This document shows, in pieces, positions 26,761 through 59,525 of a DNA stretch of 64,000 nucleotides. This DNA is from Zygnema cylindricum. Lineage: Eukaryota > Streptophyta > Zygnematophyceae > Zygnematales > Zygnemataceae. The position numbers were made by a program, and so were the translations under genes. How positions within the stretch are numbered: the first letter of the stretch is position 1; every line of letters starts with the position of its first letter. The stretch is taken from contig JBBHKE010000843.1 in the NCBI GenBank assembly GCA_037447655.1, forward strand, positions 193,617-257,616, written 5' to 3'. The notes under the pieces were generated by a model, which saw nothing but the letters and a program-made list of their open reading frames with translations, had not been told where the DNA came from and searched no databases.

Positions 26761-26879
26761 TCAGGAAAATAGAGTGAAGAAATCGAATCGGCTCTCCTAT
26801 GTCAGAATTGGTGGCGACAATTCCAATTCACATTTTTTTTGTCTTCGATACTTAGGAGTTGAAATTCCTCTAACACTGT

Positions 26880-31740: not shown

Positions 31741-31957
31741 ATGAAAGTTTGGGGATGCAAACTTTTTGGTTTGCAAACCGCAAAATATTTGAGTCTTTTC
31801 GTATGTGAAGTTTGAGGGCAAAGATATGAATTTTGAAAATTGAGTTGTCTCTACAAAATTTCTCTTACATGGATTTGGTTTGAATTATTTGAAATAATTT
31901 TCTTATATCCGTGGTTTTTCATATTTTTTGGCGAATGAAATTACTATGGTTTTCATT

Positions 31958-31967
31958 TATATAAATA
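31958..31967 (+). promoter_or_regulatory. possible TATA box
   Basis: TATATAAATA 30 bases before an ATG at 31997. In AT-rich DNA this is weak evidence. Confidence 0.25.
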
Positions 31968-32063
31968 AAAAAACCCTTTTTTTAATAATCAAATAAATGT
32001 TGCAAAAAATCTTACTTCTTTTAGGTGTGCCAATCCATTGTTTTGGGTCCAAGGATTTCAAAT

Positions 32064-32211
32064 TGTGTGTGCGTGTGTGTGTGTGCGTGGGTGCGTGTGT
32101 GCGTGGGTGCGTGTGTGCGTGCGTGCGTGTGTGCATGCGTCTGTGTGCGTGCGTGCGTATGTGCGTGCGTGTGTGTGCGCGTGTGTCTGTGTGCGTGTGC
32201 GTGTGTGTGTG
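32064..32211. repeat. GT/GTGC microsatellite
   Basis: About 150 bases of GTGTGTGC and GTGCGTGC variants. Confidence 0.9.
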
Positions 32212-32449
32212 AGATGGTCCGGTTATGCATTTGAACCTTCAAATTTATATGATGTTAAAATAACGTTGTGAAGTTTAATTATTTCTTCAAGACTATGAGT
32301 AAACCTATAGTAAAAACTAAGCGATGATAGTATCTAAAAATACTTTCAAATTAAATTTTCCGAATTCTAACTTGTGATATTTTATAAGATCAATTTGAAG
32401 TTCTTTACATTTTTTGACCCGAACCATTTTCGCTTTTTCTCCCTTAAAG

Positions 32450-35374
32450 GAAATGCACTTCTGGCGATGAAGTCAGGATTTCCGATTCGATCTGTGTTAA
32501 CTTCTTGGGACTTATCCAATTCCGATTGTTTAAATTGGATTGCAATAGATTGTGACGCAAATGGAAGAGTCATAACTATGTAAGTTTTCACCTTTTGTTA
32601 ATGAGGATTCTTAAGTTTATCTGTTAAGGTTTTTTGTTCTTAGAGTATTTTACGTGTTTAATATCAATTTTAGCCCCTTTTTTTTGTTTTAAAATTTGGC
32701 CTTCCGCAAATAGGATTGTTTTCTGGCTAAAATTCAATAATGATTTGAAATGAAACTGAGTAAATGTCTTCTTCCTCGTTTGCTTTTTTTATTTAAGATT
32801 TTTTGTCTACACTTTGGCACTTCTTTTCGAAATTTTGACAGATCTATTCCAAAAAACACTCAACTCAATGTCCCTTGTGCGCCAATTATTGGAAATTTGA
32901 CCGCCCTCACTTATCTTGAAATGTTGTAAGTAAAGTTTCTATTTAGGAAATCGTTACAACGCATTCCGTGATTTTTTTTATTTTTTTTTCTGTTTTTATC
33001 TTTAATTTTGGCTTCATCAGCATTCAAATGTATGGTCATTCTCCTTGCGAAATCTCTCTCTCTCCCCCTCTTTGTTTCTCTCTTTCTTTAAATAATTTTG
33101 ATAGCTTTTGTTTTTTTTGTAATATTTTCAGAATCATACCAGGAAATGGCCTCACGGGTCCCATTCCGGCGTCCATTTCTCAATTGAAAACCATCAAAGT
33201 ATTGTACGTTTTTTTGTTTTTTTTTTTTTGTTCAATTAATCAGAATTCATACATTGTAGATACTTCAAAAGCCAACAAGATAGGAAGCCCAGAGAAAAAC
33301 GGGGGGAAAATACATTAAAATCGGAAAAGAAAAGTTAAAAAATGAACAAATACAACGGTGTCATGAAAAGTATAAATTTACCTTTTTGTTTTAGGTGGGC
33401 TTGTTGGCAATAATTACAGAAAATTTGAAAAAATCTCACAATGTCCTTTTCTCTTTTGCTCTTTTTTTTATATCTCCTCTCCCTTCCCCTCCCGCCTCCA
33501 TTACCTCACCCTCTCCCTCCGATTTGTTTATTTGGCTCTCCTTATTTATTTTTTCTTTGCTCCTATCTTTTTCCCACACCATCTCTAATCCCTCTTTCTA
33601 GCCTCTTGAAACTACTGTTGACGCTTATGTCTAGCTTGATATCTATAGCTTATATCGATGTTGCTTTTTAGGTCATTAACGTGAACTTCTAAGTCAAAGC
33701 GTTGTGAGAGGGAGAGGGAGAGGGAGAGGGAGAGGGAGAGGGAAAGGGAGAAGGGAGGAGGGCTTTCTTTTATTGTTTTGCCTTTTCTATTTTTTTGTTT
33801 TTATCCTTTTTCCGGCTTTTCATGGCCTATCCTTAATTACCGCCCTCCGTTGTGTCTCTCATTTCTTCTTTAATATGTTCTCTTCCTCTCCTTCTTTTGT
33901 CCTTTTTCCCTCTCCCTTTCCTTCTCCCATTTGCTACCCATTTTTAGTGTCAATGTCAATTATAAGAATAAACGGATATTCGAAATTATTTTGAGAGTCA
34001 AAATAACCCTTTTCAACATAACCCGTTTTTCCCCATCAATTTGGATGTCTTGTTTCAATTTTTGTTTTTTTATGTTACCACTCTTTGTGTTTGTTCAGTA
34101 TAACAGATTTTTGAATGTCGAAACTGATCGCTTGTGTCTTCAGTTATTTTGTTTTACAATTCCAAAGAGGTAAGTGGAAGGTTACAATCTGTTCATCTTT
34201 TTGTAACTCTCCGTCTCTCATCTCTTTTCCTCCCTTTTGATTTTTTTTGTTCTTTTAGGGACTTGAGCAACAATTCTCTCACAGGATCCATTCCGCCATC
34301 GATCGGGTCGTTGTCAAATCTCACAAATTTGTAATTTCTCTACTTCCTATTTTAAAATAAACACACGTTAAATATGATATATAATCAAATACTTATAGAA
34401 AACGAAAGGTGAACAACCTTCAACAAAAGTGAAATATGTCGTCACGGCTTGCCGTTTAGCTCTTCTATTCGCCTCTACAACCAGTTATGTGCGTAATCTG
34501 ATAAGAAAAAAAACTGACGTATGGCATCTCAGAATCTTCTGTTAATTGTATTTCATTTGTGAATCATGGAAAAGAACTTTACTGGTGGCGATAACATAAA
34601 ACCTGGTATTGTTAGCTCTTAATCTTCCAAAGTAAAAGGTTATCGGATATGGTTGACTCAGGATTATCATGCCATTATCAGCTACTCCTTAATGGTTGAA
34701 AAGGAAATATTACACAAGAATATGATGACTCAAAGGAGTACAAACTATGCGAAGATAAGCTAATGCAAAGAAGCTTATGATAAATCAAAGGATAAATTGT
34801 TCCTCCTGTAACTGTTCAGTCACGGGAAACTAATACACGCTGATTATGCGCTTGTTTTTAATAAAAGGGATCGATAGGTCCATTTGGACTCATTAGCCAG
34901 GAGAAACTAATTCAAAAAGATTACCATGAATCAAGGATTCTCTTTTAGGTGTAAGAACGTCATTGCAACATACCGTGACGATGTGCATGAACTGTGATAG
35001 TTGACGGAACTGCTGTCCACTTGTAGGATTTTTGGAAATTCGTTTATGGGTCTTTTACGAGTTTGCAAGGTTCTGAAGAGTTTTTGCTACTTTTTTATTT
35101 TACAGTCAATTTTTTTGTTTTTTTCCATGGCTTATTCTCATCAAGGAGTCAAAGGATTCCCAGTTTCATTTCAATTGGATTCATTCTTAGTGTCTAATTG
35201 CTTTCAGTAATAAATTGAAATCAATTATTTTTTTTGGAGGGTTTTTATTATGCTATTTTTTATTCAACTTGTTTGTATTCTGATTCTTTTTTTTTTATAA
35301 AGGTTTTTGGGTTACAATAACCTATATGGTCCAATTTCAACATTCATCGGCAATTTGACTAGTTTGCAACGCGT
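32450..35374 (+). CDS. LRR module A: N-terminal cap and four LRR exons
   Basis: Exon 1 (32450-32579) encodes an LRRNT_2-type cap: ALLAMKSGFPIRSVLTSW, then two Cys in DCLNW and IDCDANGRV, typical of the region just after the signal peptide of plant LRR proteins. Exon 2 (84 nt) encodes a linker and NLTALTYLEML. Exons 3-5 are each exactly 72 nt, phase 2 at both ends, one 24-residue LRR each: GNGLTGPIPASISQLK, NNSLTGSIPPSIGSLS, YNNLYGPISTFIGNLT. This is the plant extracellular LRR consensus (LxxNxLxGxIP) and the plant exon-per-repeat layout. Only four repeats is short for a receptor. Exon 1 begins in phase 1, so an upstream coding exon is required. Confidence 0.85.
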
Positions 35375-38300
35375 GTAAGTTTTCCTTGCTTCCAGTAATA
35401 ATCAAAAACCAAAAAAAAACTTTATTCAAAGGTATTCACTTACCATAACTTCACAGACTACGGGCATTTGTAAGATGATTTTTAAACAAATAAAAACATA
35501 ATTGTTTATCTTTTTCTCAAGTTTCGAAGAATAAAAATTTGTCTTAACAATTTGTAAACATTTATTTTTCTTGGTACCTTTTTTCTTAAAAAAAAATGGA
35601 ACTGTGAAAACCCACTTTTTGTATATGTTTTTTTTCCAGTTTCCTTGAACTGTTTCCAAAGTTGAAACTTAAATTAGAATTGATGACTTGGATTTTTGTA
35701 AAAAAACTTCTGAACGTCTACATGTTTTTTTCTCAACAATTTCAAAATCCCATTTTCCTTTTCTTTTTATTTTAACCTTGAGTTTGAGTTTTTCATTTCA
35801 TGTGTACAATATTAACAAATTGTATATACCATATAAGTAAACTTTTTTGTTTACATTTATACTTGTGTATATGCATGTTAGTTGTGAATCTTAATTCTTC
35901 TCCCATTTCTTTAGTGAGAATTTAAAGGTACATTATTGAAGTTTCGGATTTTTCGAATGTATTTGTTGATGTAGTTTGTTCTAGTAGCTCTCGATAACTG
36001 AATGATTGAATCAAATTTGTATCGGATTTGAATTTCCTCTAACGATATTTACTGATTTTAAGAATCCCAGACGGGACAGTTTTTGTTGTTTTTTTCTCTT
36101 TCGGAATTTTCTTATAATTTCAATTTGTGCACGAAATTATAGTTCGTAATAAAAAGCTTTCGATTTTTTAATTGTTGTGCATTGATTCTGTTTTCTACGC
36201 ATTTTTGGAATTTCTCGTATTTTTTTTGCATTTCATTTTTCAAAACTGATTTGCTTTTTGTCATGAATTGATGGTGGAATGTAGACAATAAGAGCTTTCA
36301 AATGAGGTTGTATCTCTTATTTTGGTTATGAAAACAGGTCCAACAGACTACCTTGTGGTAAAACATACCCTATGTCCTTTTCTTCACGTTGACGCAACCT
36401 TAAGTAAAGCAAAAGAAAACACAAACAGGAAAAAGTAAAAAAAAACATATGTTGTACATGATTTGACGAGCATCTCATGCATTTTCGAAGGAAGATTAAT
36501 TTCTTGTTTTTTCTTTTGGAATATCATAATATTTTTTTCTTTACAGGTATCTTCAAAACAATTTCCTCACGGGTTCTGCAAAATTCGGACTGAATCTAAT
36601 TTTTGGAGACATAACTTATAATTATTTCTCGGGGCCTATTAATTTTACGCGTTCTTGGTGTCCTCTTAAAAGTTATAGAGATGGATTACGTTATAATTGC
36701 CTTTTCGGTACCAGTTTTCCAAAGCTTTGTTCCTCATCTCCCCAAAGACCATCAACTGTTTGTGCGAATTTTTGTGTATCGACACAAACAGGAGGATATT
36801 GTGGAGGAAAAGGATTCTGTTCTTCAACTGAAGCAGTTATTCGTGTATATGTGATAGTGGGTATATTCCCAGAACAGCGTCGACATGTTCTCTTGGTGAG
36901 TTTTCTTTTGTTCTTTCCTTATTTTCTTGTTAAACATTTTCGTTAACACGTTTCCTTAGTGAGCTCTCTTGGTTTGGATGAATTTGACAGCTTGTCCCGA
37001 TTTCTTCGACATTTTTCTTTATTTACTTCACTTTTATAGTTTTTTACTCGACCCAAGATTTTTTTCCAAGAATTTCGTAGTGATTGTGGGTTGTTATGAA
37101 TAGCATGTTCTTTTCAACCAGAAAATGGTTTTCTTTTGATTATTGTCTTTTGGATTTCTAAGGATTCTTTTTATGTATGTGCATATTCTTATAATTTTTT
37201 AACGGGTTTATGAATTCACAATAAAGATATGAACAATGTGGTCTTTTCTTAGGGTGTTATGGGACACAAGTATATAGGAGAAAGTTACCTTATTTCCACA
37301 TTGAATATCAATACATATGATTTCCTTTCATGGTTTATGAAAAAAGTGTATATCTATATAATTATTTTTGTTTTTGAAGTATTAGTATTGGTATAAGAAT
37401 TAGTATTAGTATTGCTGTTCACTTATTTATGTATATTTTTTGATATTTTTAATGCATAATTTCATGTGTTTTTATGTATGCTTTTCTACTTATAATATCT
37501 AACAGTAAACATTGTAGCTTTCGTACCTTTGGCTTTTTTATTATTATTAATTTCACAAGGTTGTTTAATCCTCCTACTTTGCTTGAAGGTTTCCAAACAT
37601 TCTTTTCGTTGACTTTTTTATTTTACCTTTGAATGTTCTTGTTGTCCGTTTCTCTTGCAGTTAGTATTAGTACACCAAATCTTTCGTTTTGTAATGTAGT
37701 TGTTGGCCGTTTCTCATTTCCTGAAGATCATGACTTTTAACATCTTTTATGTTTTTGTTTTTTTTATTACCATACTTCTTATAAATATTATTCCTCCACC
37801 ATTCGTACAATGCTCACAAACCATGAAATACGACACAATTCTTTCCCTCTAGCATCACCATTTTACAGACGGTAGATAAAAGAAAAAACCTAAAAAAAAT
37901 TCAGGCATTTTGCCCAAGGGCAACCCAAGTCGGTGTCGAACCTCTTCGAAAAACTAAACCATGCGTAAAATTCAAGATAAACCCTTACAATGATCTCCCA
38001 ATGAAATTCAAGAGGAATTTCTTATAAACGATTATAACAACCGGTTTTAATCCATCATGTAATCTCATACGAACATAATCTCATGCACATCATATCCTTT
38101 AAATCACAACGAATGTGATACCTATACTCTTTTATGTCGTTTTTTTTTTTCCTTTCATTTTTTGACAAACGCAGCGTGCAACGGCATTAATTACTCCTAC
38201 ACCGTTTATGTCAATGCCGATGCTGTGGGAAGTGACATTGCAAGTTACACAGCGACCACCGCTTTGGAATGTCAACAGAAGTGCACAGCGGAATGCACTT

Positions 38301-41300
38301 GCACAGCCTTTAGGAGTAGAAATAATTATAATTGTTGGATAAAAAGGAATACCACTAGACCAACTTTGTTGTACAACCCCCCTGGATCCTTGTACATCAA
38401 AAATCTACGTAAGTGTTTCATCTTCTATTGGCAAGAAATTTTACTATAAATGATATAAATAAAAAAATTGGATTGTTTTACTGTGCTTTTCGTCTGTTTG
38501 TGCTTTATCCCTCTTTTTGGGAGTAAATCGAACTTTATTTTGAAACATGTGTTGTAAAACGTCTTAAGAATAATAATTAATGGAGCCAGCTTATGTTAAA
38601 TTTCGTAGTTTAACTGAATCGGGAAAGGAGAAATTGAGCAAATTTAGGTCTTTGTATTTGCTTTTACCATTTCTTCCCCTCAAAAACATATGGCTATGGT
38701 TAAAACTTCCTTATTAATTTTCATTTCACTATAAAGGTTTTTTTCCTTAGGATGAAGCCGAGGTTTTAGGATATTTCTCAGTTAAAACGATTATAATGTA
38801 TTATGTATACCATAAACAAACATTTATGTAGAAATTTGTATTTAATTGCATGTAAAAACAGGACGTATTTGTGTTTGTACACTACCTATTTAAAATATTA
38901 CAAAGTTTATTGTTTTGGTGTAAAGATAAAATTCCCAAAATGAAAAGTTAATATCAAATACCCATTCGCCCTTTTTATCTCTCGCTTTTTTTATCTTTTG
39001 ATCGCTCCTATCCCTCCCTCTTATCACCGCACCCATTTTCTCCTCCTACACCAATGATCCGCCATCGGCCGTCCCCCGGCGCTTTGTCACATTTCGTATC
39101 TCCTCTCCACCTCCCCTATCATCACCCCCCCCCCCCCCATTATCCCCCCCCCCCCCCCATATCCCCCCCCCCCCCCCCCCCCCCATCCCCATATCCCCCT
39201 CCACCGCCCTCAAGGATCATCCCATATCCTCCACCCCCATATCCCCCATCATCTCGCCGCCCCTCCCCTTCTCCACCATCCCTTCCTTTCCATTCCTCCT
39301 CGCCCGCCTTCTCCTCCTCCGTCTCCCCCTTCCCCACCCAGCCCACCTCCGGGATATACACACGGTAATGTTTGGATTTCAAACCGGCATTTCAAATAAC
39401 AAAAATGATTTTTTTTTTTTTTAATTAACAATCTTCACTTCGGATTTCTACTTTCTTCTTCTCATTGATGATTTCAAAATTTAATTCCATTCTTTCAAGT
39501 GTTTCGTTTTTATGTAGACCGTTGTTCCCGTCCCAATCCTTTATTGCTCTCCCTCTACAGTGATTTCCCCTCTCCCCACTCTCGCCTCTTCCCCTTTATA
39601 AAGTACAATTCTGAAGTATGGTTATGTCTGAGGACATCACGAGACCTACGGCTTATATTTAATAGCATAAGTGCTGGCCGTATATGTTTCGCTTGTCAAG
39701 TATTGACTAGAAAAGTCATTTTGTAGTCGACAGCTTGTGAATTATCAGGTCACGACAAATTGGCTATAGCGGGTACATAATTTACCCGAACGGTTCCAAG
39801 GCCAACTTCTGAGAATGGATACATGACCATCCCTTGCAAATGTATATTCACCCCGGAAAAGAAACTGCAAAGAACTGTAATTACCGGATCAAAGATGCTG
39901 GTCCAATTACTATCCGTTTACAAACATAATTTTTTGTCCGTAAACTCATGTTTTTGCTGCCAGCGAACACTCCAGTTCCGTCAATTCAATATAGCAATAT
40001 TTTAAGACGCCGACCTACTGTGGCAGGGTAAATCTGAACTTGATTTCTAGTTGGCGTCCGTGAAATATAGTCGTCGACACTCAATGTAATACTAGTGTAA
40101 CAAAAACCTCTCAGATAAAATGTAATTTCTGTTACAATTCCTTGGATTGACCTATTGACATTAATATTTCCATTATTTCCTTAACTTGGCATTATTAACC
40201 AAAGTTTACAAGTCAAGCTTTGGTTAGTCTTAAGTATGTTTCTCAATTCTTTAGTTTGGTTGTTGAATTCACAAGTCTACTCCTTCACAATCTGTAATTT
40301 GACCCCTATGTTCTTAAGCCTTCAATTTAAAATTGAGTTGTCCGTTTCACTGTTCGTCCCTAGTTCAAAATCTAATTATTGGTTCATCCATCAAACTCTT
40401 CTTTTCAACTATTTAATATTTTGGTTGACCATCTAAAACATTATTTTCACTGTCGAGTCTCTAATTTCACTACCAAGCCTTTAATTTCTCCCCTGCTTGA
40501 GTATGACCGGTGAGTCTTTAATTTGACCATTATCGTTCTGGTTTGAGTATACTGGTTTGAGTATTAAGTCCTTACTTCAACAGTGAGCTCCTGAGATCAC
40601 CCTTGGAGTAAGTTCAATGAGTCTTTGGCTTGACCAGGAGCTTATGGACTGACGATTAAGTCTTTTTTATCATCAAGTCTTTTTTTCACCTGTGAGTTTT
40701 AATTGAACCATTAGGATGAACATCAATTTTACTCTAATCATCAAACTTATCTGTCCATTAGGTCCATATTTATCCGTTTAGCCCATTATTTAACCTTTAT
40801 GTCCTTAGTTTGGTGAGCAGCTATTTAGTTTGATTAAAAAGTTTTTGGTTCGATTATTAGTCCTTTTTTTACCACTTAATCCTTAGTCTGGATGTCCTTG
40901 CGTTCGAGTCCTCTTTTTTACAACGAAGTCATTAGTTTGAAAATTGACTTTGTCGTTTTAACACTGGGCCTTTTTTTCACTGTTGTCTTTCAGGACCAGC
41001 AGTTACTAGTTTGATCGTATCTATTTATTCTTAATTTGACCAATTATTCACTAGTTTACCAAAGATGATCTGTTTGGTAAATCAACGGTTTTACAACTAG
41101 CCTTAAAATTCACCAATCATTTTTAGTAAGACCACTGGCCTTTAGTTTGACCACCAAGTCTTTCGCTTTTTTCTTTGCCCTTCGGCTGTCTGAGTCAGCT
41201 GATTTGCCTGTTGAGTCCCTAGTTTCACCGTTTTTTTTAACTTAACCATCAGGTCCTTTGTTTATTTGGTAAATAAGGTAACTAATTGGAACTCGGAGTC

Positions 41301-44300
41301 TTTATCACCATTAATTTTGTCCTTTGTCAAAACCGCAATGTGTTCTTTTTTTTAAGTAGTAAATTTAATTGACACGAATTTTAAAATTAAGCCAGCTAGC
41401 AATTAAGTGACCTCATTTATACACTCTCTTTCCCGGTTCTATTGTTAAAAAACTATTTTCTTCTTTTGTTCTCTTTTGTATTTTTGCCTGCTCCCATTCC
41501 TTTTTTCTTTTCATTTATTTCAAAAAAACTTTTCCATTGTGGACCTCTCAACACCAGTTAAGAGATCCTTAAAAATCCTAAACCTTTCAGACACCAGCTA
41601 CCCCTTCATCAAACCACTCAATTTTTATCAATTTTTGTTTTCGAAATTTTCCAGCAAATCTACTTCTCCAATTCAAGGCAACTATTACAAACGATCCGAA
41701 TAAAACATTGGATAACTGGAATTTGGGTCAAAATGTTTTCACTTGGAATAGAGTGGAGTGGGACAAGTACAATCGCGTGAAGAGGATGTGAGTTTTTGAA
41801 ATTCCATCTTTGCTATTTTGAAAAATTGAAACGACATACGAATTCCTTACAATTTTTTTATTTTCTTGTATTTTCTTTTGAGGCGAGGGGACCAAATAAG
41901 TCCTTTTACTTAACCTCTTTTTTTGGGGATGTAATGTTTGGCAGTCTTCTAAATGGGAGTAAACTGGAAGGAACGTTTTCGTCGGCACTTGGGGGTATTT
42001 CTTCACTAGAAGAATTGTAATTTCTTTCGACTCAAATGTCTCCCACTAATGAAAAGCCAAAATAACCTTGTTTTTTTTTAAATTGTTTTCGAGTTTTATG
42101 ACTGTAACTTGTTTTTTCCTCGGAATTTATCTTTGAACATGCATTGTCGTTTCGGAGAAATGTCTTTATTTCAGAGAAATCAAGGTATTTTTTTGATTTT
42201 TCACATAGGGTTGCTATTTCGATGAGAAAATTAAAATTTCTAGTTTCTTTAATACCGGGAAAAAAAAAATTGAAAGTTTTATTTTGGGTGAAGAAATTTA
42301 AAGAAGATGAATACTGTATCAAATTCAATACAACGACTTATGGAATTTTTCTTTGGTTAAATATGTGATGGTAAACTTTACATCAAAGGCAAAATTGTGA
42401 TTAAATTTTTAACTGTCCTTTTGTTATAAAAATAGGACTTTTTTGGTGAATATGGAAGTTTTCCTGTGCAAAATAACAGGTTAGCTTTAACATCGATAAA
42501 AAAATAAGATTATTGGAAAAAAAAAAGATTTGACATTGTTTTGAATGTCAACCGTATTTTCAACTGATCAAATGTTTTCATACAGTTGTTGCTTTCTGAT
42601 AGAATTTCCCTCTGCACGAGTTTTCCTTTTTTTCTGTTCAATGCCTATTCACTCGCTTTGTTGACTTTGGCATAACTGTTGTCGTTTGTCTCATTTTGGA
42701 TCGTTTTAATCTCTCTACTTTCGTCTCTTATGCTACGTCTTGTATTGCTCATTTCAGTTATATTGTCTCTTATGTCACCTCTTTTGTCGCTTATGTCAAT
42801 ACAAAGGTTGCTTATGTCACTGTGTATGTCATTGTACCTTTTGTTATTGTATCTTCATTAGAGTTTAGTTTGATAATTCTCCCTACCCTAGTTGTATATT
42901 CACTAGTGGACCATTTCTTTATTCTAGTATAAAAATAAGGTCACATTATAGATATTAACTCAATTAAGTTTGGCAATTAGAACCTAAGGAGATCTCGCCG
43001 CCAATTTCATCTTTCATCGCCTTGTTGTTCTACGCATATTCGCGGTGACTTTCTTGGTTTTTTATTTAAATGGCCTCACGTCTCTTAGTTTCTTTACTCT
43101 TGGTTTACATCTCACTTTCTCCATTTTTTTTGTTTTTTCTCGTTTATTGATTTATCTTTAACTTTTTTTATTTCGTCTTATATTCAGAGACTTATCGGAT
43201 AATTTATTGAAGGGAGTGATTCCGAGCAGCATTGGAAATCTCAGAAGTCTCAAAATATTGTGAGAAATTTTGAGCATTTTCTTCTTTTCCATTTTTTTCA
43301 TAAAATTGAACGGTAGTATTCTAAATTACAAATTTCAGTAAAAATATGCGAGTATTCATGGCTGATTATGCAGTTTTTATTAAAAAAAAAATTGGATAAC
43401 ATTATGTTCGTAGCTCTAAGCATTTATATACGTCAAGTATTCGACTGTATGATGAAATAAGGATTATGCTATTTCTAAAATCTTGATGTTGATGTTTTTT
43501 ATCACCCTATCATCTCCCGGGAACACTCTCCTCCTCCCTTCTCACCCACCAACACCCTCTTCCCCCTCCCTCTCTCTCCACCTACTTCCCCTCTTCGCAC
43601 CCACCCCTTACACCTCTTTTTCCTTTGTTTTTGGATAGACGGTTGTCAAATAATCTTTTCAGCGGGGAAATTCCAACGTCCATTACAAATCTTGCCAATT
43701 TGCAAGCTTTGTGAGTACTTTTTTACAAAACTTGTAAAGAGGAATTGTTGATGTTTTTTTTTATTTTCTTGTTTGCTGGATGTCTTTTGTAAAAAATGTT
43801 AAAGTTTAATTAAAAATAGCACATGTAGATATATATATATATATACACACATGTAGATATATATCGTATATTGTATATTTGAATATACGTAATTTTATAT
43901 GCATAAAAAAAGATAATGCATAAAATACATATGTTCATGAATCTCTACATGCATAAGTGTCTGGGTGTATCCTTAACATTTCAAATAACATTTTATATTG
44001 AAAAAACAAAGGATAATCAGTTAGAATACCTGGATGTTTTGTGCAACTTGAGCTAATATTATCGGACACCAACCAAAAAAATCGCAAAGCTTTTTCTTTT
44101 TTTCCTTGTTTTTTACATCCATTTTCTTTCTCTCTTTTGATGAAATTGTTGGTAATGTTTTTGTATGGCAGGTTTTTGGATAGAAATACATTATCCGGAA
44201 GTATCCCTTTGCTTCTCGGACAACTCAAAGGTCTACAAAACGTGTAAGTGCCTCTTTTTGTATACTTTATTTGTTTGTTATTTTTTTATTATGTTTTTTT

Positions 44301-50300: not shown

Positions 50301-53103
50301 AACGAATTGCCCTTCGGTAAACTTCGAACCACCTTTGACCGATCGCCGTTGGTGTGATGTGAAGACAGATAAAAAATGAAAGTGAAGTACAAAGAATAGC
50401 TTATTTGATGGATATTTTCAAAGGGTATTTTTGAAAATTCTGCTGCACAATGCCTATTCTTATAGACATGGAAAACAGTCAGTGGACCTATAGTGAGCTA
50501 AAATTTAAAATTAGGTTCCGGTCTTTTAGGAAGTAGCAACAGAAAACAAAAGGAAAATCAAGACCAAGCTTGATACAAATAATTGGACCAACATAAGTGT
50601 GGCTGGCGTAGTGAAGGACATACAAGAGACATTTAAAGTCATACTAGGGAGAAGCTTCCTAGTGAAAGAAATTCAATCTAATCACTAGCACCAAGTGAGG
50701 ACGGAGTGGAAGCACTTGTCTCCGTCTCTGTATCTTACACATCTAACAGCCGTGATGAATAGTCCTCTTCACTCCCTAATAGATATATCCAGAGGATTCA
50801 GGTGAGCCTGTTACAACAGGTATTACATACCAGACATCAAAATGCTAAGCAGAATAGGAAAATTTTGTAGAGTCAATCCAAAAATCGTAATTACAGTCCA
50901 TCATAACACATATCCTCATTTGTTAAGTTCAATGAAATCTGAAACCTATCTATCTTTATAATCATTTTCAAATGCCGAAACATGGACGAATCACACTATA
51001 TCACACCTTTGAAAAAGAATAATAATTCTTCACCTTCCATTTTAGCTGATTATTAAGAAACGAATATGTTACATTACGTCGAATCATGTCATATAATGTG
51101 AGTTTGTCAAAAAGGATTTACAGAATAAAGCGAATTAAGGTCATATGAATGTAACACCTGAAATGGTGATGATCTTGTCAAGATATCTTCAAATATTTCA
51201 GTGTCGACTATTTCATGTGATTTTTCTAACTTCCGGTTCGGTTTTTCGAGATCTATTCATGATTCTGCGCAAACTTTAGTCATCAATTTCACCGAATTTT
51301 TTTTTTTTTTGTTTTTTGAGTTTGTCCAAACAATGGGATCAACTGTCATCCCTAGATGAAACTAAACGTAGCGTTAGGGTTTTCAAATATAGTATTTACA
51401 AAAAAATTATACGACGCCTTATGTTTTGGGCTATCTAATTTGTACTCCACGAAAGCTACTTAAGAAGGTCCCTTGTCTGAGCTCTTAAGTTTCTACTTAT
51501 CCTGGATATATTTCTTTACTCGTTTTTTTTTTATGCTATTTCAGGATCCTGTCAGCACCTTAAAAATTGATGCCTTTGAGCAAGTTCAACTGAACGGATG
51601 GATCGGTCTCCTTCTCGCCCTCCAACAACAGCCCACTATTGTGTATATTGAAGGGAGTTATGACGCCTTTCTTAATTATAAATCTGTAAGTTTTTTTTCT
51701 TGTTTGAGGTTCAAAATAGATTTTTATGTATGCGTTTGTTGACATAGTGTGTTAAAGTGTTTTCTTTAAGGAATATTGAGTTCAGTTTAGTTTAAGTGTT
51801 ATATATTTTTTAATTTTTTTTTTTTCTTTTTTGTCTTTTTGAGCCCTGATTTATTGTTGGCCGGCATCATCGCTAGAAGTTACTTTGTTATCGAGGTGTA
51901 TAATGTAAATATTCAGCACAAAGCCTTGTCAGATTTATCTCTTCGTAAATAATTGTATCTCTAGGATTTCTAACCTGTCACCTGAATAGTAACAAAAGCC
52001 TGAGAGTTTTTTTTTACCATTTAGACATGCAAGATTCACCTGACTCTGGCACTTCAGGTCAAGAGGCAAAGAACTGTTCAAATCTCTGCCGATCCACTAT
52101 GTCCCAACTGTCATCTACGACAGCTTTCCTTAGTGTTTAACTTCCATGCTTTAACTTTGTAATAGCATCTCTGTCAATACAAACAAAAATAATATTTCTA
52201 TTCTCTCCCGTCTGTCTTTTGCTACACCGTTAATTAATTTTTATCATGCATTCTACGTCAATCAGTATCATGTAGTTTCCTATTTTTGATAAAAAATTCT
52301 GTTGATTGATTTTTATGGGGAAGCTTCTGCTACATCTATGGTTTTTTTGGCATGCCATAGTTACAACGGCTAGCTTGGTTGAGCACTCATTTGTTAACGT
52401 TCAATTTGTGTAATCTGGACTAAACTTTTGGTTGTTTTTTTCAAAAATCCGCTTTTGAATACTTGGAAAGTATGGATTGGATCTTGCTTGCTGTAGGATA
52501 TTTAAGTTCGGTAGAATGTTTAATCTTCTCTCAAGTAAGAAAATTACGTTACAGACAAACTTGTGAGCATCTTTATTTAGGAGATACTTCCTGGAAATGT
52601 TTTACTTGCTAACGTTTTTTTTGTGGAACTAATGTCTGAGCATTCATACAATGTACGAAAACTTATGAAGAATTTTATCTCCTATGTTATGAAGTATTTT
52701 TTGTTTGTGATCCTTTATTTTCACGTCTGATCCAATCAGAAAATGTAAAAAAGGAAGATATGAGACACACTTCACTTTCCGGGAGTACTCATTGGTATCC
52801 GATTCAACTATACAACACTTTCTATTTTTATGCATTTTGCAGGGAATTTTTGATGATGAGTATTGCTTTTCAAATGGAGTGAATCACGTAGTGGTTGTGG
52901 TGGGTTACGATCTCACATCAACTCCTCCGTTTTGGATTATTCGAAATTCTTGGGGTTCAAAGTGGGGTGAAAATGGGTATATGCGTTTGAAAATAACGAG
53001 TGGAGCCGGAATATGCGGAATAAATAGCCTTCCGGCTTTAATACCCATTTTAAAAACAGGTAAGAGAACTTCCTACCTTTTAAAATGATAGAGAAGAATC
53101 AAC

Positions 53104-53199
<96 letters not shown>

Positions 53200-56100
53200 T
53201 CTCTATCACACTCCTTTTCTTTTTGCTCTTGTTCTTTCTCTCTATTTCTCTTTGCCTCACATGTACACAAAAAATAAAATTAAAATACACCAAACGGAAC
53301 TAAGAGAAACCGAACCCTTGCAACCTTTTGGGCTACTCAAGAACAATTTTGTCTTCCGAATCATCTCCTGGTCGAATGAATCCGTGTGGAAGTGGAATTT
53401 GTATCCCCACGGGATCTGATGGAAATATTTGCAAATGTGCAAATGGGTTCACGGCTGTCAATAATACGGATTCCTCACAAACATGCGCTCCAGGTGAGTA
53501 CTTCAAAACACCGGAATGCGGCCGTATTCAGTGAGGGCTTGTATGGCATGCTTGTTTTTCTGTGGGCTGGAGCAAAATTGCTATTTCTCTTGTGGATTTG
53601 AAACGATTTCGCATATGAATAGTGGTTTTATGATCTTGAGCTCTTCGCAATACTTATTATTTCTTCTTCTTTTTCTTCAGTAAAAAGATCAAAAAGGAAC
53701 TGTTAAAGCTACAATCTGTGCATCGTTATCTCAGTCTTTAAGCTCTTCTTTTCTTTTATTTCGCAAGAACTTCTTTTAATGTTGTTTGTGGAAAGATCAT
53801 GATAAGTGTGCGTTGGAAAACCATAATTGGTAGTGTGGATGCGGATAACACGATCGGAAATTACGCATATGTGGTTTTGTTAGAGCATTGTGGATTTCGT
53901 AGAAAAGCATCTATTTGGTCCGATTGTTAATCTTTTTATTTTGGTCCAGGTGCTTGGATTCTATACTATAATTCGATTCATCACCGTGCAAAATGTAGAT
54001 GTAGAAAATGGTTCAAAAAAATGAATCAACCCTATATCAAAAATTCAAGAAACTGGATTTGCTAATATTTGAACCCTTCCTTTCTAAATATTGGGCGTGT
54101 GATAATCAAACAAAACAGACCATCTGAGGTTTCAACTGAAATCTTATTGCCGGAATCAATATGTTGTTGTCACTTGTACTAGCTTTTTCCACCGTGAAAG
54201 GAATCCTTTGTTTGGAAACCTGTTTTTCTAGAATCATTACGAATTAGGAATAACTATTTTAGTTGGGTCGAGGATTGTTTTAGTGCAAACATGCAAGTAA
54301 TAATAGTGTGGATTAGTTTGTGGAAGCCAGACTTGTGTATTAAATACAACAATTGTAACTTTTTTGCTCGAACAATGTGTCGGTTGAGCTACCATAAGTT
54401 TTTTCGGATTCTCGTTCGTGTTCATTAAACCCTAAGAACTTATACGTCTTTGCTGTTATTTTTCACCGCCAAAACCTCTGAACTTCCATTAAAAACCGAA
54501 TGCATCTCGTTAAAACGGCTAAGACTTACAAGTTGATGGTTCCTTTGATTTTAATCTGCGTTCTTCTTAGCCTCTCCGTGCACTTTCTCGTCGAACAATC
54601 CGTGTGGCGTCGGAGCTTGTGTCGATTCGGCACTTTCCCTTGGCACATATTCATGCATTTGTCCGATGGGCTATGTCTCCAATGCGCCAGATGGCGCTCT
54701 CACGTGTGTTCCAGGTTTGTTAGTTTCTTCCCTCTAAGACACAACTTCGTCTCTCTAAGACACAGCTTTTTAGGAAGTTTCTGAGGTTTCCCCTTTAAAT
54801 CTAGTGGTTTCACAGTTTTCCAAGGATTTTTTGAAACGTTCGGGTTTTCTGTCGTTTTAAGGATTGTCCATTTTTTTTTATATACATAGGAAATTATTTT
54901 TTAGGAAAGGCTTTTAGATTTCTCTTTTCTTCTATTATTTGAAGGGCGTTCTCATGGATTTTATTTTTTGTTTTGTGGAATTCCCTTGAGCTTATAATAT
55001 TTCACAATTTCCAGAAGCCACCTGAAAGACATATTTTGCTATTGAAATTTAATGAATAATCAAACTATATCTACGGAGCGAGAAAAGATATAACTATAGA
55101 ACTGGGGAAAACAATTAGAGAATTGCATGCAAAGGAAAGTGATAATGTCGTGCTTTTGTATGTAGAAAGATACGCCGTGTATGGTTAGTAGCGTTAATTT
55201 TATTTTTTTTACCACTTAAATCAACTTTCTCCATTCACCCGTGTCTCAATTCGGTTTGGGGACCGCTAATCTGAAGGTAAGGATATCACCTTTCTATCAC
55301 AGCCGTTGATTAATAATTTGGTAAGCTGCACGTACGAAAATTAATCTAAGTGTCAAAAAATACATAAAGACTAATAACAGTGCACAGCGTACACAAAAAT
55401 ACAGAAGACCCCAACAATCTTGAAAAACCTAAGGTATCTTAAGAAAATATCAAAACCTCAACATCCTCAGGTGTTACTTCGGAAGTTAAGAGCGTACTTT
55501 GAAATGTCACAAAAACGTCGCATTACATTTTTTCTCGCGTACTACTCTGGTCATAACTTTTGAAATAATCACTGGACATTAAATTGTGCAAAACTTTTGC
55601 TGGCCGTCAAATTTTTGCCACACGTCAGAATTTGCTGAAAATTATTTTCTGAATTATGCTCTTAAAACTTTGGAAGAAATGCAGCAAATTAAAAAATTGA
55701 TCATAATTCCTATAGCATGATAGTTGGGGTAAACGTAATGAACATATCTTTACCTGTACCTGATAAGTAGTTTGTCTAACATGTGACTTTTAAGTGTTTT
55801 ATCAGGCCTCACATACAGAGCTTTAATCCAAACATTTAACCATCTCCTTGTTGGTTATTGTTGGTTGTTGGTTATTGTCCTTGTTATGTTTTGCAGCTAG
55901 TTATAATTTTTTTTTGTATGTTTTCCTTTTTTTTATACTAGTCTTCCATTTTCTTTTTTATCCTTCCTCGTTCCACTTTCATTTCGTCCGTTTCACATAT
56001 TTTCTCACCCTCACTCGCTGTCCTCTCTTACTTGTCCACTCCGATCACTCACTCCTTCCCTTCCCCTTCCGCCTTCCCCCCTCCCTCTCTCCCGCCCCTT

Positions 56101-59100
56101 CTGCTCCCCCCAGTCGGCAGCGTGGATGCCAGCCTCCAAACTTATACGGTTCCAGATGGGTACAATGTCAGCTGTGACGTCATTTTCACGACTTATGGTA
56201 TCCCGCTTGCCAGTTTTCTGTCACAAAATCCGGTGGGTTCTCCCTTTATAAAATCACACAACGTGGAATTTTCTCTCATAAAAAATCGGAAATAAATGTT
56301 TATCATAGGCCACATATTGAAAAGTGGGCGAAAAAAATGTGGAATTCGGTTTGAAAAATTGGAAGGCAAGGACATTTCAAAAATAGTTAATGAAAAATAA
56401 AATTTAAATGATGAGGGATTAAATTGAAATTAAGTTACCACACCTTACAACAAGGCAATCTGGTTCGTAATGTTGGTTGAGAAGTTTTTGTACTAAAAAA
56501 CGAAATGTGATGAGCAAATTTAATTGCAGTAGTAAATGCATATCGAAACACCTCGTAATTTCTTTTTCCATTTATTTTGACACATTGCGAACATATGGCT
56601 TCCCTAATCCGTTTTATCATTAAATATCAAACTGTAATATTCCACATAATGTTTCAAACAAACCTTTGGTTTTTGCAAGCCAGCAATACAGTAGACTATA
56701 GGTGTAACGGTACAATAGTTTTTTGTTTAATTGAATGCGTAATATACATGGTGGTTTTTCCTCTCTACTTTAAAATGCTTCCCGTTTTCACTTGTAAAAC
56801 TTACGTTCCTTTGCGGGGTCTTAAGTTAGTAACTAAGTATAATACTAAAAATGGTATGTGATTTTTCTTTTTCCTTAATTTTTTTCGTTTTGCTCTAACA
56901 CCCATGGAAGCTTTTTAATTAAACGAAATAACGTCTCACCTACATAATTGCATTGAACATGTCTTTGTAATTTTTAACGAGAAAAATTTGGAGATGTTTA
57001 AATCCTTGTCATTCTTTCGATTGTAATTTTCATTAGTGTGGTTGTAGTAAACTAGAATTTTCATCTTTGATAAATCAGTGCTATTGTCAAAAAGTATTTA
57101 TATCAAAACCCTATTCCATTTATATGTTAGGATGTGTTAGACTGTTTCTCTAATCAATGAGGGATAGGTGTTTTATCGTACTCTTAAGATTTCCATTTAA
57201 AGCTAGAGCTACAATGATTGAAGGAATCAAAAGAGAAAAAGGAATCAAAACCCCATTCATATATCTCCCAAAACTGCCTTGCATAGAAATAATCCCATAA
57301 CTCAAAACATGAATGGGTCATTAAGATGTTGTTTTTGGGTATAATTTTGCCTGTTTCTATTTGAATAATGTACTGTTGTAAACTTTTTGGTTTACTGCAT
57401 GCTATATTTTACAAACGCCATGTGTTCACTATGAAACTAGCGGTATTATGACTTTATTTTTTTTTTCCAAGATTGACAGCATAAATTCTTAAAACACGTC
57501 TGAGTGTACTATTTAGCCTGATATCTTTCTTTTTTCGTTTTTTGTTTTTTTTTCCAAAATTGCAAGATTTGTTTGTTGCAAATCCAAAATCTCAAACATC
57601 ATATATTCTGAATTTGACCCAAGCCGTACATCATTTTTCCATTTCAGGATGTGAACTGCAACGATTCTCTCCCACTCCCTCCTTCGACGGTAGTCAATGT
57701 GACTAACTTCCAAAACTGCTCCATTATCTATGCGGTCAACGAGGTATATATCTCTCTCCTCTCCCTTTCTCTCTCCCCTTCTGTCCCTCTTGATCCCTCA
57801 TTTCTTCTTGCGCTGTGTACAACTGCTTCCCCTCAAATTCTCTCTCTCTCACATACATGTCTCTCCCTCCTCGCTCCCTCCCAGGGTGACACTTGTGCTT
57901 CTATTGCCGGAATCTTCTCCATCCCCTCCCTTTCTGGACCTGACTCCCCCAATCCGGACCTCAACTGCACCTCATTGCAACCTTTCCAACAGGTTAAACA
58001 CAAACACTCCCGAAAAAAAAGTTTGCAGAATGCACCTCTTAAAAAAGCACACTCCAAAAGGCTTATTTAACTAGTGTAAAATCACCTCAAAAACGGTTAT
58101 GTCTGTCCCAAATGTTTGGATGGGTTACAGAATAGACAGAAGAGAATGATAACATTGGAATGAATCCACGTCGCTTTTGGTGAAACAACTCAAAACGGAC
58201 AATTAATGGGTTCATTGGGTTCATATTGACTTTTTTTTACAACTTCTATTTTAAATTTCTGAACATATTACCTTCAAGTTGAAAGCAATAATATCTTAAA
58301 GAGAAGTTTCATTAAATTCAATGAACATAATCAGTACTATCGACAATAAATATTGATCAACCACAGCTCAAAATCTCCTAAACGCTAAAGTTTTAAAGAG
58401 AAAAATTATGTCAAGTGTCTGGTCAAGTTGACTGTTACAGGTGCACTAAAGAGATTTAGAAATTAAAGATAAGAATGAAAATAGAAGCTTGAAATTTGAA
58501 GCACAATTTCCTTTAATGCACAAAAAAATTTAACCGTTTTATCTTTCTTAAATCAAATGGACTTGCTGAATCTACTTAAAACTCGGTGAGAAAACGTGTT
58601 TTGGAAGTTTTCTTATCTTATCTAAGGCTGTCCTATGTTTTTTTTTTTTTTCAGGTCTGCGCTGTAAGAGGACCTCTGGAGTATCCAGGGCCGTGTACAA
58701 AACCCTATGGTGTGAGATCCAACGAGAGTTGTTACTCGATTGTGATGAATAATATGAATGGAAACGTGACAAAGTTTTACTTTCTGAATCCGGGAGTTTA
58801 CTGTGGTCGAATTCAACTATCTGCGAGTGGTAGTACTTCCCTTGGACAACAGGTAAATCACGTTGAATACGTGGTTAATTTTTGGAAGTATGGTTAACTT
58901 TCTGCTAAGATTTTTTTGCCTAGCTAAAATTCGGGTTTACGGGTGGGGTATGGCTAGCTTCAGCTTAGCTTAAGGTTAAAGATGCATTGATTTTTTTGTG
59001 GAGTATTAATTATTATCTTTTTTTCATGAGTTTTTTCCTCTGATGTTCCCTCGTCTTCTTTTTTTCTATTTCCATGCTGTAATCCTCTCCCTCACCAATC

Positions 59101-59525
59101 CTATGCCCTCCAACTACCTTACCCTCTTCATCTCTTTTGCTTACTTTCCTCAATCTACTTTCCTCTTCTCCTCGTCTTTCTTCTTTTGCCCCTTTTTTGT
59201 TCCTCTCCCTCTCCTCCCCCCACTCCCAATTTTTCCAATGAAATTGTCATGTTTTCAAACTAATATTTTGGTTTTGGTACAATGGTCTTAGGTTTGCCTT
59301 GAAGCGGAAGATTTTGGAGCCAATCAAGCGAAATGCAAAGGAAAAGCCATTATATTTTCAAAAAGTGCCACATGCAAATCTCTGGCAAAATGCTATACGA
59401 AAACATCAACTTTCAAAAAGCTGAATAACTTCGCTTGTAAGGAGTCTCAACTTAGAGTACTTCGTGCCAAAAGTCAGAGTCCTCGAGTTTGCGTCCCATC
59501 CACGAGTTCGTGCAAGTCTTCTTAG
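32450..59525 (+). CDS. multidomain secreted-type protein: LRR-EGF-PAN-LRR-EGF-cysteine peptidase-EGF-LysM
   Basis: Exons read by eye: 32450-32579, 32842-32925, 33132-33203, 34259-34330, 35303-35374, 36547-36895, 38175-38408, 41655-41787, 41945-42016, 43188-43259, 43639-43710, 44172-44243, 46632-46703, 47996-48345, 49393-49581, 50090-50316, 51545-51685, 52843-53059, 53305-53493, 54571-54714, 56114-56232, 57648-57743, 57885-57992, 58655-58852, 59292-59525 (stop TAG). All introns are GT-AG and phases fit throughout, except that exon 6 is one base short. About 1,240 codons. No transmembrane segment or kinase is visible. The first exon (start codon and signal peptide) is missing from the model. 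It may be one gene, or two tandem genes divided between exons 7 and 8. Role inferred: extracellular, possibly binding glycan (LysM) and cutting protein. Name and exact function unknown. Confidence 0.75.
33704..33745. repeat. GGGAGA microsatellite in intron 3
   Basis: Seven copies of GAGAGG-type 6-mers. Confidence 0.9.
36547..36895 (+). CDS. last LRR of module A plus EGF-like domain (exon 6, frameshifted)
   Basis: Begins as an LRR (YLQNNFLTGSAKFG), then a Trp/Cys-rich joint, then an EGF-like unit with the Cys pattern of exon 14: CANFC, YCGGKGFC and then, in another frame, CICDSGY. The phase entering is 2 and the phase leaving must be 1, which needs 350 nt; the exon has 349. Exon 14, its paralogue, has exactly 350. 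The break lies at about 36835-36841 (GCAGTTATTCG), where one base appears to be missing. Read literally, the protein would stop inside exon 7. A sequencing indel or a true mutation are both possible. Confidence 0.75.
38175..38408 (+). CDS. PAN/apple domain (exon 7)
   Basis: A 78-residue exon, phase 1 in and phase 1 out, so a symmetric movable unit. It has the PAN-like spacing ALECQQKCTAECTCTAFR followed by NCWIK and a hydrophobic end SLYIKNL. PAN domains bind protein or carbohydrate and occur in plant lectin receptors and secreted proteins. The strong donor GTAAGT at 38409 supports splicing onward. If unspliced, the frame would end 14 codons later (38447-38449), giving a possible end for a separate upstream gene. 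Confidence 0.8.
39123..39186. repeat. poly-C low-complexity tract
   Basis: Runs of C separated by single AT or CAT. It produces proline-rich open frames on + and glycine-rich ones on - that are not genes. Confidence 0.9.
40180..41400. repeat. degenerate intronic minisatellite, about 20-bp unit
   Basis: Diverged units such as ACTGTCGAGTCTCTAATTTC, ACTACCAAGCCTTTAATTTC and GGTGAGTCTTTAATTTGACC follow each other at 20-bp spacing; the TTTAGTTTGACC core recurs along about 1.2 kb with indels. Confidence 0.65.
41655..46703 (+). CDS. LRR module B: second N-terminal cap and LRR exons 9-13
   Basis: Exon 8 (41655-41787) is a second LRR cap: NLLLQFKATITNDPNKTL, TLDNWNLGQN and RVEWDKYNRV, in the same phase as exon 1. 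It lacks the usual Cys pair of such caps. Exons 9-13 are all exactly 72 nt, phase 2 on both sides, one LRR each: NGSKLEGTFSSALGGIS, DNLLKGVIPSSIGNLR, NNLFSGEIPTSITNLA, RNTLSGSIPLLLGQLK and YNQLTGYLPSTLGGLT. The repeat of cap plus LRRs inside one exon chain suggests an internal duplication or joining of two related genes. Intron 12 (44244-46631) carries a complete MITE. Confidence 0.85.
43834..43865. repeat. AT/AC microsatellite in intron
   Basis: Short ATATATAT and ACACAC run. Confidence 0.8.
45078..45293. mobile_element. TA-flanked MITE, hairpin type, complete (216 bp), in intron 12
   Basis: Left end CACCTTGAATCGCTATTAGG after TA (45076-45077), right end CTAATAGCGATTCACGGTG before TA (45294-45295). 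Inner hairpin arms CTTAAACATCTTTTCTGCG and GGATAAAAGATGTTTTAAG. Same inner sequence as M3 (15798). Confidence 0.85.
47996..48345 (+). CDS. last LRR of module B plus EGF-like domain (exon 14)
   Basis: 350 nt. Starts as a terminal LRR (ARNNLLIGQVSMSL, DLSFNYFSG), then a Cys-rich joint (TCGGIQKNC, TCSQDEQ), then an EGF-like unit: CNNFC, GACGGHGICYN, TCECDVGYN. Paralogue of exon 6 over its full length with the same phases (2 in, 1 out), but intact. It links the LRR arm to the peptidase domain. Confidence 0.85.
49190..49275. mobile_element. MITE right-end fragment in intron 14
   Basis: GTATTAGCGATTCACACTG followed by TA resembles the right terminal repeat; no left end found. Confidence 0.4.
49393..53059 (+). 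CDS. papain-like (C1A) cysteine peptidase domain, exons 15-18
   Basis: Exon 15 (49393-49581) gives a linker and the mature-domain start SWNWVRRKAVQRITDQDIC, with the oxyanion Gln in TDQ. Exon 16 (50090-50316) starts NSCWIYAPIAAIESAYYI, which contains the catalytic Cys. Exon 17 (51545-51685) holds the central part, ending in FLNYKS. Exon 18 (52843-53059) has the catalytic His in NHVVVVVGY and the Asn in IIRNSWGSKWGENGYMRL. Thus all four active-site residues are present across about 255 residues, a normal C1A size. Differences from papain: CNSCW instead of CGSCW, no GCxGG motif (TCEAEGW instead), and no recognisable I29 propeptide, only about 30 residues after the EGF unit. An alternative donor for exon 16 in the same phase lies at 50359. 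Endopeptidase activity is likely but not proven. Confidence 0.9.
50317..51544 (+). other. intron 16, nothing recognised
   Basis: No gene or repeat boundary seen. The frame stays open for 23 codons past the chosen donor GTAAAC before a TGA, hence the alternative donor. Confidence 0.5.
53104..53200. repeat. CT microsatellite in intron 18
   Basis: About 95 bases of CTCTCT with few interruptions, directly upstream of the exon 19 acceptor, where it may serve as an oversized polypyrimidine tract. Confidence 0.9.
53305..54714 (+). CDS. two EGF-like exons (19 and 20)
   Basis: Exon 19 (53305-53493) and exon 20 (54571-54714) are symmetric phase 1 units. Exon 19: NPCGSGICIP, ICKCANGF, TCAPG; its acceptor (CTAAG) is weak but is the one that keeps phase with exon 18. 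Exon 20: NNPCGVGACVDS, YSCICPMGYV, TCVPG. Both have the six-Cys EGF layout and end in C-x-P-G. They form a spacer between the peptidase and the LysM array. Donor of exon 20 is GTTTGT, less usual. Confidence 0.82.
54715..56113 (+). other. intron 20 with a MITE copy
   Basis: Carries the diverged MITE at 55173-55389 and a pyrimidine-rich tract before the acceptor at 56111-56113. Otherwise AT-rich with nothing recognised. Confidence 0.6.
55173..55389. mobile_element. diverged TA-flanked MITE (217 bp) in intron 20
   Basis: Left end CGCCGTGTATGGTTAGTAGC after TA, right end CTAATAACAGTGCACAGCG before TA. Inner part resembles the hairpin-type MITE (CACTTAAATCAACTTTCTCC). Confidence 0.6.
56114..59525 (+). 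CDS. four LysM-like units and C-terminus (exons 21-25)
   Basis: Exons 21-25 carry four repeats of a Cys-type LysM pattern. Unit 1: LQTYTVPDGYNVSCDVI, LSQNPDVNC. Unit 2: IIYAVNEGDTCASIAGIF, NPDLNC. Unit 3: YGVRSNESCYSIVMNN, FYFLNPGVYC. Unit 4: IIFSKSATCKSLAKC, LNNFACKESQL. Unit 2 has the classic GDTC turn. The introns inside and between units are phase 0. After unit 4 the chain ends with VCVPSTSSCKSS and TAG at 59523-59525. LysM units bind GlcNAc-containing glycans such as chitin or peptidoglycan. No GPI signal or membrane helix is seen at the end. Units 1, 3 and 4 are divergent, so LysM identity rests mainly on unit 2 and the shared Cys spacing. Confidence 0.82.

Follow-up and report, generated by a model that had tools for sequence, protein, structure and literature searches.

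The 64,000-nucleotide stretch of the Zygnema cylindricum genome analyzed here (GenBank assembly GCA_037447655.1, contig JBBHKE010000843.1; C631:193617-257616 in the contig naming used below), referred to as the window, carries on its (+) strand a gene that is probably (probability about 0.6, judged from sequence) a member of a large family of secreted, multidomain papain-type (C1A) proteases targeted by their ectodomains. Unless a contig is named, coordinates are window positions. A first-pass annotation had assigned leucine-rich repeat (LRR) and EGF-like exons, a peptidase, and LysM exons to a single gene, read as that of a protease secreted or bound to the wall, and this assignment is supported: their order and strand recur at no fewer than 49 of 137 C1A loci, intron phases mostly agree with those of the copies read, and the predicted chain has 14 N-glycosylation sequons and no membrane helix. 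LRR exons forming a gene apart from the peptidase exons are not what the genome suggests.

Exon borders were located and the chain translated from exon 8 to exon 25 (41655-59525). These 18 exons join into a single frame of 2745 nucleotides, encoding 914 residues followed by TAG, and all 17 introns have GT-AG borders. In a chance control using AG-started stretches with lengths equal to the real exons and ends outside exons 8 to 25, each of 5000 trials contained at least 23 stops. The exons are listed below, with Pfam E values in parentheses where available.

41655..41787, (+) strand: exon 8, LRRNT-like exon of arm 2, without the two Cys residues (LRRNT_2, 0.02, below the cut-off)
41945-42016, 43188-43259, 43639-43710, 44172-44243, and 46632-46703, (+) strand: five 72-nucleotide LRR exons of arm 2 (LRR_8, 1.1e-16)
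47996..48345, (+) strand: exon 14, LRR/EGF exon of arm 2, 350 nucleotides (EGF_2, 6.9e-4, just below the cut-off)
49393..49581, (+) strand: C1A exon 1, a lead of ~45 residues with no I29, then the N-terminal portion of the peptidase, including the oxyanion-hole Gln (Pfam, alignment)
50090..50358, (+) strand: C1A exon 2, with the catalytic Cys codon at 50095-50097 (Peptidase_C1, 4.2e-39; chymopapain alignment)
51545..51685, (+) strand: C1A exon 3 (borders, Pfam)
52843..53059, (+) strand: C1A exon 4, with the catalytic His codon at 52885-52887 and the Asn codon at 52945-52947 (chymopapain alignment)
53305..53493, (+) strand: exon 19, EGF-like exon a (GT-AG border and frame fit)
54571..54714, (+) strand: EGF-like exon b (Pfam EGF together with exon a)
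56114-56232 and 57648-57743, (+) strand: LysM-like unit 1, two exons (not significant alone in Pfam; both exons present in paralogs)
57885..57992, (+) strand: LysM-like unit 2 (LysM, 4.5e-4)
58655..58852, (+) strand: exon 24, LysM-like unit 3 (alone no LysM match; 117 genome matches including itself)
59292..59525, (+) strand: exon 25, the last exon, LysM-like unit 4 and stop codon TAG at 59523-59525 (alone no Pfam match)

The encoded order is therefore an LRRNT-like segment, five LRRs, an LRR/EGF segment, the C1A peptidase, two EGF-like segments, LysM-like units, and the stop. The single chain of 25 exons joined by phase and GT-AG borders that had been drawn across the locus stands for these 18 exons, and it does close at a stop codon, but it fails in the upstream arm (arm 1), where the frame breaks in exon 6. 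Two LRR arms were recovered by Pfam as annotated (LRR_8, 1.1e-16 for arm 2 and 2.3e-9 for arm 1). The EGF-like label fared well in the tail (exons a and b jointly, EGF, 1.5e-8; whole tail, 3.7e-8) and less well upstream, exon 14 lying just under the cut-off and arm 1 having no Pfam EGF match. The counterpart of exon 8 on contig C2107 has both Cys residues and an LRRNT_2 match of 1.9e-6. Within the 914-residue chain, 46 Cys residues and 14 sequons were counted, and hydropathy identified no membrane helix (maximum of 1.37 over 19 residues, the N-terminal exon not included), which fits a secreted protein. No kinase domain was found among the Pfam matches of the exon chain, which closes at its stop codon. 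Scored as a whole, the tail matched LysM at 8.5e-6 (26.1 bits; cut-off, 20.9 bits) with no single stretch above the cut-off, and LysM was found in all four paralog tails scanned, out of six assembled (27.8 to 50.2 bits; 2.5e-6 to 2.4e-13).

The C1A peptidase had been annotated with all its catalytic residues, and both parts of that description were confirmed. The Peptidase_C1 match covers profile positions 2 to 215 of 220, and the active-site Gln, Cys, His, and Asn all align with those of chymopapain, the closest solved relative (6e-29), followed by ficin, ervatamin, and triticain among the best 60 of 173 rows. No relative of the peptidase was found in a scan of viral contigs. Pfam identified no I29 propeptide in the exon chain. 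In a six-frame search of the genome for Inhibitor_I29, three candidates were scored and all three matched, on C1970, C547, and C1311, each beside a C1A match, with none on C631. C1 members that lack I29 exist, and membership in C1 therefore stands despite the missing propeptide.

The genome (352,776,454 bases in 2689 contigs) was then used for a census of C1A loci. A Peptidase_C1 search gave 303 candidates, of which 150 were scored and 137 cover the last C1A exon; these 137 form the census set, with the window's C1A exon 4 entered as C631:246453. Partner modules were sought with exon 14 (443 candidates, 150 scored, including itself), exon 6 (401 candidates, 150 scored), LysM exon 24 (all 130 candidates scored, 117 matches including itself), the PAN exon (31 scored, 22 matches including itself), and Lectin_legB (84 scored, 83 matches). 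The census reaches 15 kb from each last exon, and its positive counts are lower bounds. An LRR/EGF exon lies upstream on the same strand at a minimum of 59 of the 137 last exons, at a median distance of 2.8 kb; the downstream and opposite-strand controls both gave 0. A LysM exon follows downstream on the same strand at 74 or more (controls, 1 upstream and 3 on the opposite strand; random-placing expectation, 0.34), and both partners flank at least 49. Lectin_legB is upstream at 17 or more, against 1 downstream and 1 on the opposite strand, and at least 74 of the 137 have one or more of LRR/EGF, PAN, and Lectin_legB upstream. Among the matches listed, the window is the only C1A locus at which LRR/EGF, PAN, and LysM occur together. 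Dozens of like genes suggest a repertoire of secreted, target-seeking proteases rather than a one-off accident of assembly.

Ten C1A loci were read directly from stretches of ~20 kb (one of 18 kb), taken from ten of the first eleven contigs listed, with C1181 skipped. Plant-type LRR exons lie upstream in seven, and in six (C1052, C1662, C1505, C2344, C1414, and C2033) LRR, LRR/EGF, C1A, EGF, EGF, and LysM follow in this order, with two of the four C1A exons found in C1052. The seventh, C1380, reads LRR-C1A-EGF-EGF; of LysM it has just part of the last exon, a LysM match being on the other strand. C2271 reads C1A-EGF-EGF-LysM with no LRR within the stretch read, and C1970 and C547 are ordinary C1A genes adjoining an I29 match. 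Intron phase was compared with the window at 71 acceptors and 71 donors across the seven LRR loci; the nearest AG agreed at 59 and the nearest GT at 64 (expectation, ~1/3). At the junction from LRR/EGF to C1A, six of seven donors and six of seven acceptors agreed; from C1A to EGF, the figures were seven and six of seven, respectively.

Catalytic Cys, His, and Asn are retained in six of the seven LRR loci, the Cys exon not being found in C1052. Ratios of nonsynonymous to synonymous substitution (dN/dS) were calculated by the Nei-Gojobori method for six of the seven, C1414 being excluded. They were 0.13 to 0.31 for C1A (15 pairs, five of them with C1052 on ~100 codons), 0.18 to 0.43 for the LRR/EGF exon (15 pairs), 0.06 to 0.59 for EGF (15 pairs), and 0.31 to 0.52 for LysM (10 pairs). 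For the LRR exons the range was 0.50 to 0.96 from five pairs, four of which had two exons only, and the similarity-based pairing biases these values. The enzyme is constrained, and the LRR exons less so. Stops in the tails of C1505 and C1052 and in the near copy C1462 show that birth and death of copies are under way.

The peptidase also adjoins several other kinds of recognition module. In the two loci read that combine PAN and C1A, C2211 and C1824, an F5/8 type C domain precedes PAN (7.4e-18 and 2.5e-13), and after PAN comes either a ricin-B-like segment (2.6e-4, short of the Pfam cut-off) or a pair of legume-lectin domains (2.1e-34 and 5.2e-34), then C1A. All of these modules are on one strand and are described by adjacency.

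Some further observations concern the same modules elsewhere in the genome. Of the 150 scored LRR/EGF exon matches, 86 have no C1A last exon within 15 kb downstream among the matches listed, and the LRR/EGF ectodomain may also serve other proteins. On C456, C2124, and C216, LRR/EGF-like matches lie within long open frames of 338 to 741 residues, possibly intron-poor members. With 1851 residues, the open frame around the LysM match at C1824:74834-74986 is unusually long for an intron-rich family. C1462:536000-545999 is ~80% identical to window 44681-49030, introns included, and its copy of exon 14 is 85% identical at the protein level and has stops; at C1462:564198-564395, a LysM exon is 97% identical to that of the window. 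This uneven divergence may hint at gene conversion.

Upstream of exon 8, the window carries the exons of arm 1, a PAN exon, and a possible linker, as follows.

32450..32579, (+) strand: exon 1, LRRNT exon of arm 1, both Cys residues present (LRRNT_2, 1.8e-4, above the cut-off; AG before, GT after)
32842..32925, (+) strand: 84-nucleotide exon before the LRRs (borders, frame)
33132-33203, 34259-34330, and 35303-35374, (+) strand: three 72-nucleotide LRR exons in the same phase (LRR_8, 2.3e-9)
36547..36895, (+) strand: exon 6, LRR/EGF-like exon, frame broken near 36832 (translation; no Pfam EGF match)
38175..38408, (+) strand: exon 7, PAN domain (PAN_1, 4.5e-6, exon alone)
39215..39364, (+) strand: weak candidate for a linker exon that would join the two arms, Pro-rich (SPP) and compatible in phase (low-complexity C-rich DNA)

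The PAN domain annotated here was recovered from exon 7 alone, and arm 1 is similar to arm 2 (1.7e-30). Exon 6 has 349 nucleotides against 350 in its counterpart, exon 14, and its Cys-rich part is split over two frames that switch near 36832. Pfam gave no EGF match in arm 1 even when the break was read across with X, and exon 6 is labeled EGF-like from its similarity to exon 14. Among the matches listed, the nearest relative of exon 6 in the genome is C2107:8207-8494 (54%), in one unbroken frame; the same contig and strand carry, at 400-759, a match close to exon 14 (67%). When read directly, C2107 was found to have an LRR exon, an intact LRR/EGF exon of the arm-1 type, an arm-2 LRRNT with both Cys residues, five LRR exons, and the arm-2 LRR/EGF exon. 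The arm-1-type exon lies 5′ of the arm-2 LRRNT on the same strand and less than 10 kb away. C2107 has, between its arms, a long open frame rich in Pro, whose GTAAGA donor agrees in phase with the shorter candidate of the window; both are low-complexity DNA. The linker is a weak candidate only, since such C-rich DNA is open in more than one frame. No PAN match was found on C2107 among the matches listed.

Several findings weigh against placing the whole window gene in a family of this kind. Arm 1 is interrupted in exon 6, so that as sequenced the frame reaches a stop in exon 7. No signal-peptide exon was identified for either arm of the window: intron 7 has 0 phase-1 candidates, and the 16 ATG/donor pairs in 28000-32450 all lie within CT- or GT-rich sequence. 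A simple scan likewise found no signal-peptide-like exon between the arms of C2107, nor was one seen by eye upstream of the LRRs in C1380 and C1505. For 47 of the 137 C1A last exons in the census, the matches listed include no partner of any of the four kinds at a distance of up to 15 kb, and the marker used was the LRR/EGF exon, the LRR repeats proper being known only from the loci fetched. At the first LysM exon, the nearest AG is out of the window's phase in five of six paralogs. The LysM units of the window are weak, and the annotation of four clear units was not borne out, as only one of the four is significant when scored singly (4.5e-4). Of the four relatives closest to exon 14 among the matches listed, three show no full LRR arm: the 9 kb read of C1462 contain a single LRR exon, after which the sequence diverges, with stops in its copy of exon 14, and C133 and C2015 have no LRR exon in ~9 kb upstream of the exon-14 relative, with C1A and LysM matches still present downstream in C2015. 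These LRR-poor copies and the limit of the census marker slightly lower our confidence.

The main rival to the double-arm gene is that of two neighboring genes, a broken LRR-EGF-PAN gene (32450-38408) and a complete LRR-EGF-C1A-EGF-EGF-LysM gene whose own signal-peptide exon would lie in intron 7, with no double-arm protein. It is a possible arrangement, which we regard as the less probable one. Each arm does open with an LRRNT-type exon needing the same phase, exon 6 is interrupted, the contigs of the closest arm-2 relatives (C1462, C133, C2015, and C2107) gave no PAN match among those listed, and each of the seven fetched LRR loci has a single LRR/EGF exon in the stretch read. However, C2107 places an arm-1-type exon 5′ of an arm-2 LRRNT, and the simple scan found 0 signal-peptide-like phase-1 exons in intron 7 of the window and 0 between the arms of C2107. 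The arm-2 LRRNT of the window lacks both Cys residues, as an internal piece might, and a phase-compatible Pro-rich linker is possible in both loci. On balance, and at odds somewhat better than even, the LRR-EGF-PAN exons form a second arm at the N terminus of this gene, as read in the paralog C2107. The broken frame of exon 6 and the Cys residues lost from the LRRNT of exon 8, together with the stops in C1462 and in the tails of C1505 and C1052, could also mean that the gene in the window is a pseudogene in decay, within a family whose other members are active, but this is improbable given 914 codons over exons 8 to 25 with no stop, every border intact, and all four catalytic residues kept.

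If the window gene does belong to a family of secreted C1A proteases, what these do may still be read in more than one way. Tentatively, and at odds that we put below even, they could constitute a receptor-like protease repertoire: many secreted C1A enzymes without propeptide, bearing interchangeable ectodomains (LRR-EGF, F5/8C-PAN-legume lectin, or ricin-like) and a LysM tail as glycan anchor. Recognition would then lead to direct extracellular cutting, and the arms would diversify around a conserved enzyme. Already under the main reading of a secreted, ectodomain-targeted protease, the N-terminal arms would bind varied protein or glycan targets, and the LysM tail would hold the enzyme on N-acetylglucosamine-type or wall glycans. 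The missing propeptide suggests that the ectodomain or partner proteins may keep the enzyme in check, setting its activity in place of a classical propeptide. The output would be local proteolysis at a recognized surface, whether of microbes, partner cells, or the alga's own wall, and not kinase signaling; such enzymes may have a role in processing microbes or in the cell wall. A rival reading, a little short of an even chance, gives the same architecture another job, that of a housekeeping protease for remodeling of the cell wall or mating matrix or for extracellular digestion, with the LRRs evolving faster by relaxed constraint and not for microbe recognition. The matrix of the alga itself could be what the LysM and lectin modules bind, and dN/dS of the LRRs stays below 1 (0.50 to 0.96); yet the copy number, the variable ectodomains, and the contrast between a conserved enzyme and a faster arm resemble, by analogy, recognition repertoires.

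In plants, kinases normally provide the readout of receptor ectodomains. The same types of ectodomain tied to a secreted cysteine protease would represent another output for recognition, and the receptor-like repertoire, if true, would parallel the receptor-kinase repertoire of plants, with proteolysis as its output. Such a family raises the question of how a C1A enzyme stays silent without the usual propeptide and, being in a streptophyte alga, as its plant-type LRRs and plant-type papain would also suggest, bears on the kinds of surface recognition present near the origin of land plants.

Other features were also seen in the window. Ty1-copia-type retroelement frames lie at 77-595 and 1630-2367 on the (+) strand (rve, 9.3e-18; RVT_2, 2.1e-57) and probably also at 4001-7028 on the (−) strand, with direct repeats at 2308-3292 and 7693-8667 (87 to 95%). 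A large inverted-repeat set at 13344-22563, with arms of up to 319 nucleotides (91%), in which a short motif with CGGTGTA at its end occurs several times, is probably mobile-element debris, and a 20-nucleotide tandem array lies at ~19100-19850. Sequence to the left of arm 1 recurs at C98:187000-196999 directly before a truncated PAN exon (the corresponding window segments being 26465-30805 and 38009-38317), as if a retroelement and a piece of the window gene had been moved or deleted together. Rfam at gathering thresholds and ARAGORN gave nothing in the 64-kb window.

Plant papain-like cysteine proteases are preproenzymes with an I29 propeptide, and those of the RD21 type have a granulin tail. 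Chymopapain, ficin, and ervatamin are the top solved-structure relatives of the window peptidase and share its catalytic residues, whereas the window protein has no I29 and has large binding arms. With plant LRR receptor-like proteins and receptor kinases the window gene shares LRRNT_2, GxIP-type LRRs, 72-nucleotide LRR exons, and the PAN module (LRR_8 was found in both arms, and LRRNT_2 scored above the cut-off in exon 1 and below it in exon 8), but its chain has no transmembrane helix and has a peptidase where the kinase would be. Some sister C1A loci carry the legume-lectin (2.1e-34) and PAN modules of L-type and G-type lectin receptor kinases; there, as judged from adjacency, the modules stand beside C1A and not a kinase. 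The Marasmius oreades agglutinin is a fungal lectin-protease whose sugar-binding module delivers a cysteine protease, as might be the case here, but it is of other make-up.

The nearest precedent is in Chlamydomonas, for which Peptidase_C1 plus LysM proteins have been reported, likewise a C1 peptidase joined with LysM in a green alga; according to the same paper, angiosperms have lost the combination of peptidase and LysM, and in moss the peptidase partner is peptidase_M23 (PMC2728734). In the available sections of that paper, the Chlamydomonas proteins are not said to carry LRR, lectin, PAN, or F5/8C modules, whereas the window gene has LRRs. Joining of an LRR or legume lectin to Peptidase_C1 plus LysM is likewise not mentioned in the available parts of papers on streptophyte domain combinations (PMC11096116 and PMC11289646) and plant receptor evolution (PMC10834447), where no such fusion is named, in those of PMC10407611, or in the remaining literature searched, which excludes supplements and most subscription journals. 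The first-pass annotation knew of no standard family with this order; the C1-LysM part was already reported from Chlamydomonas, and LRR or lectin with C1A and LysM was not encountered in the literature searched. Receptor-type ectodomains combined with C1A and LysM at such copy number are, within that literature, new to us.

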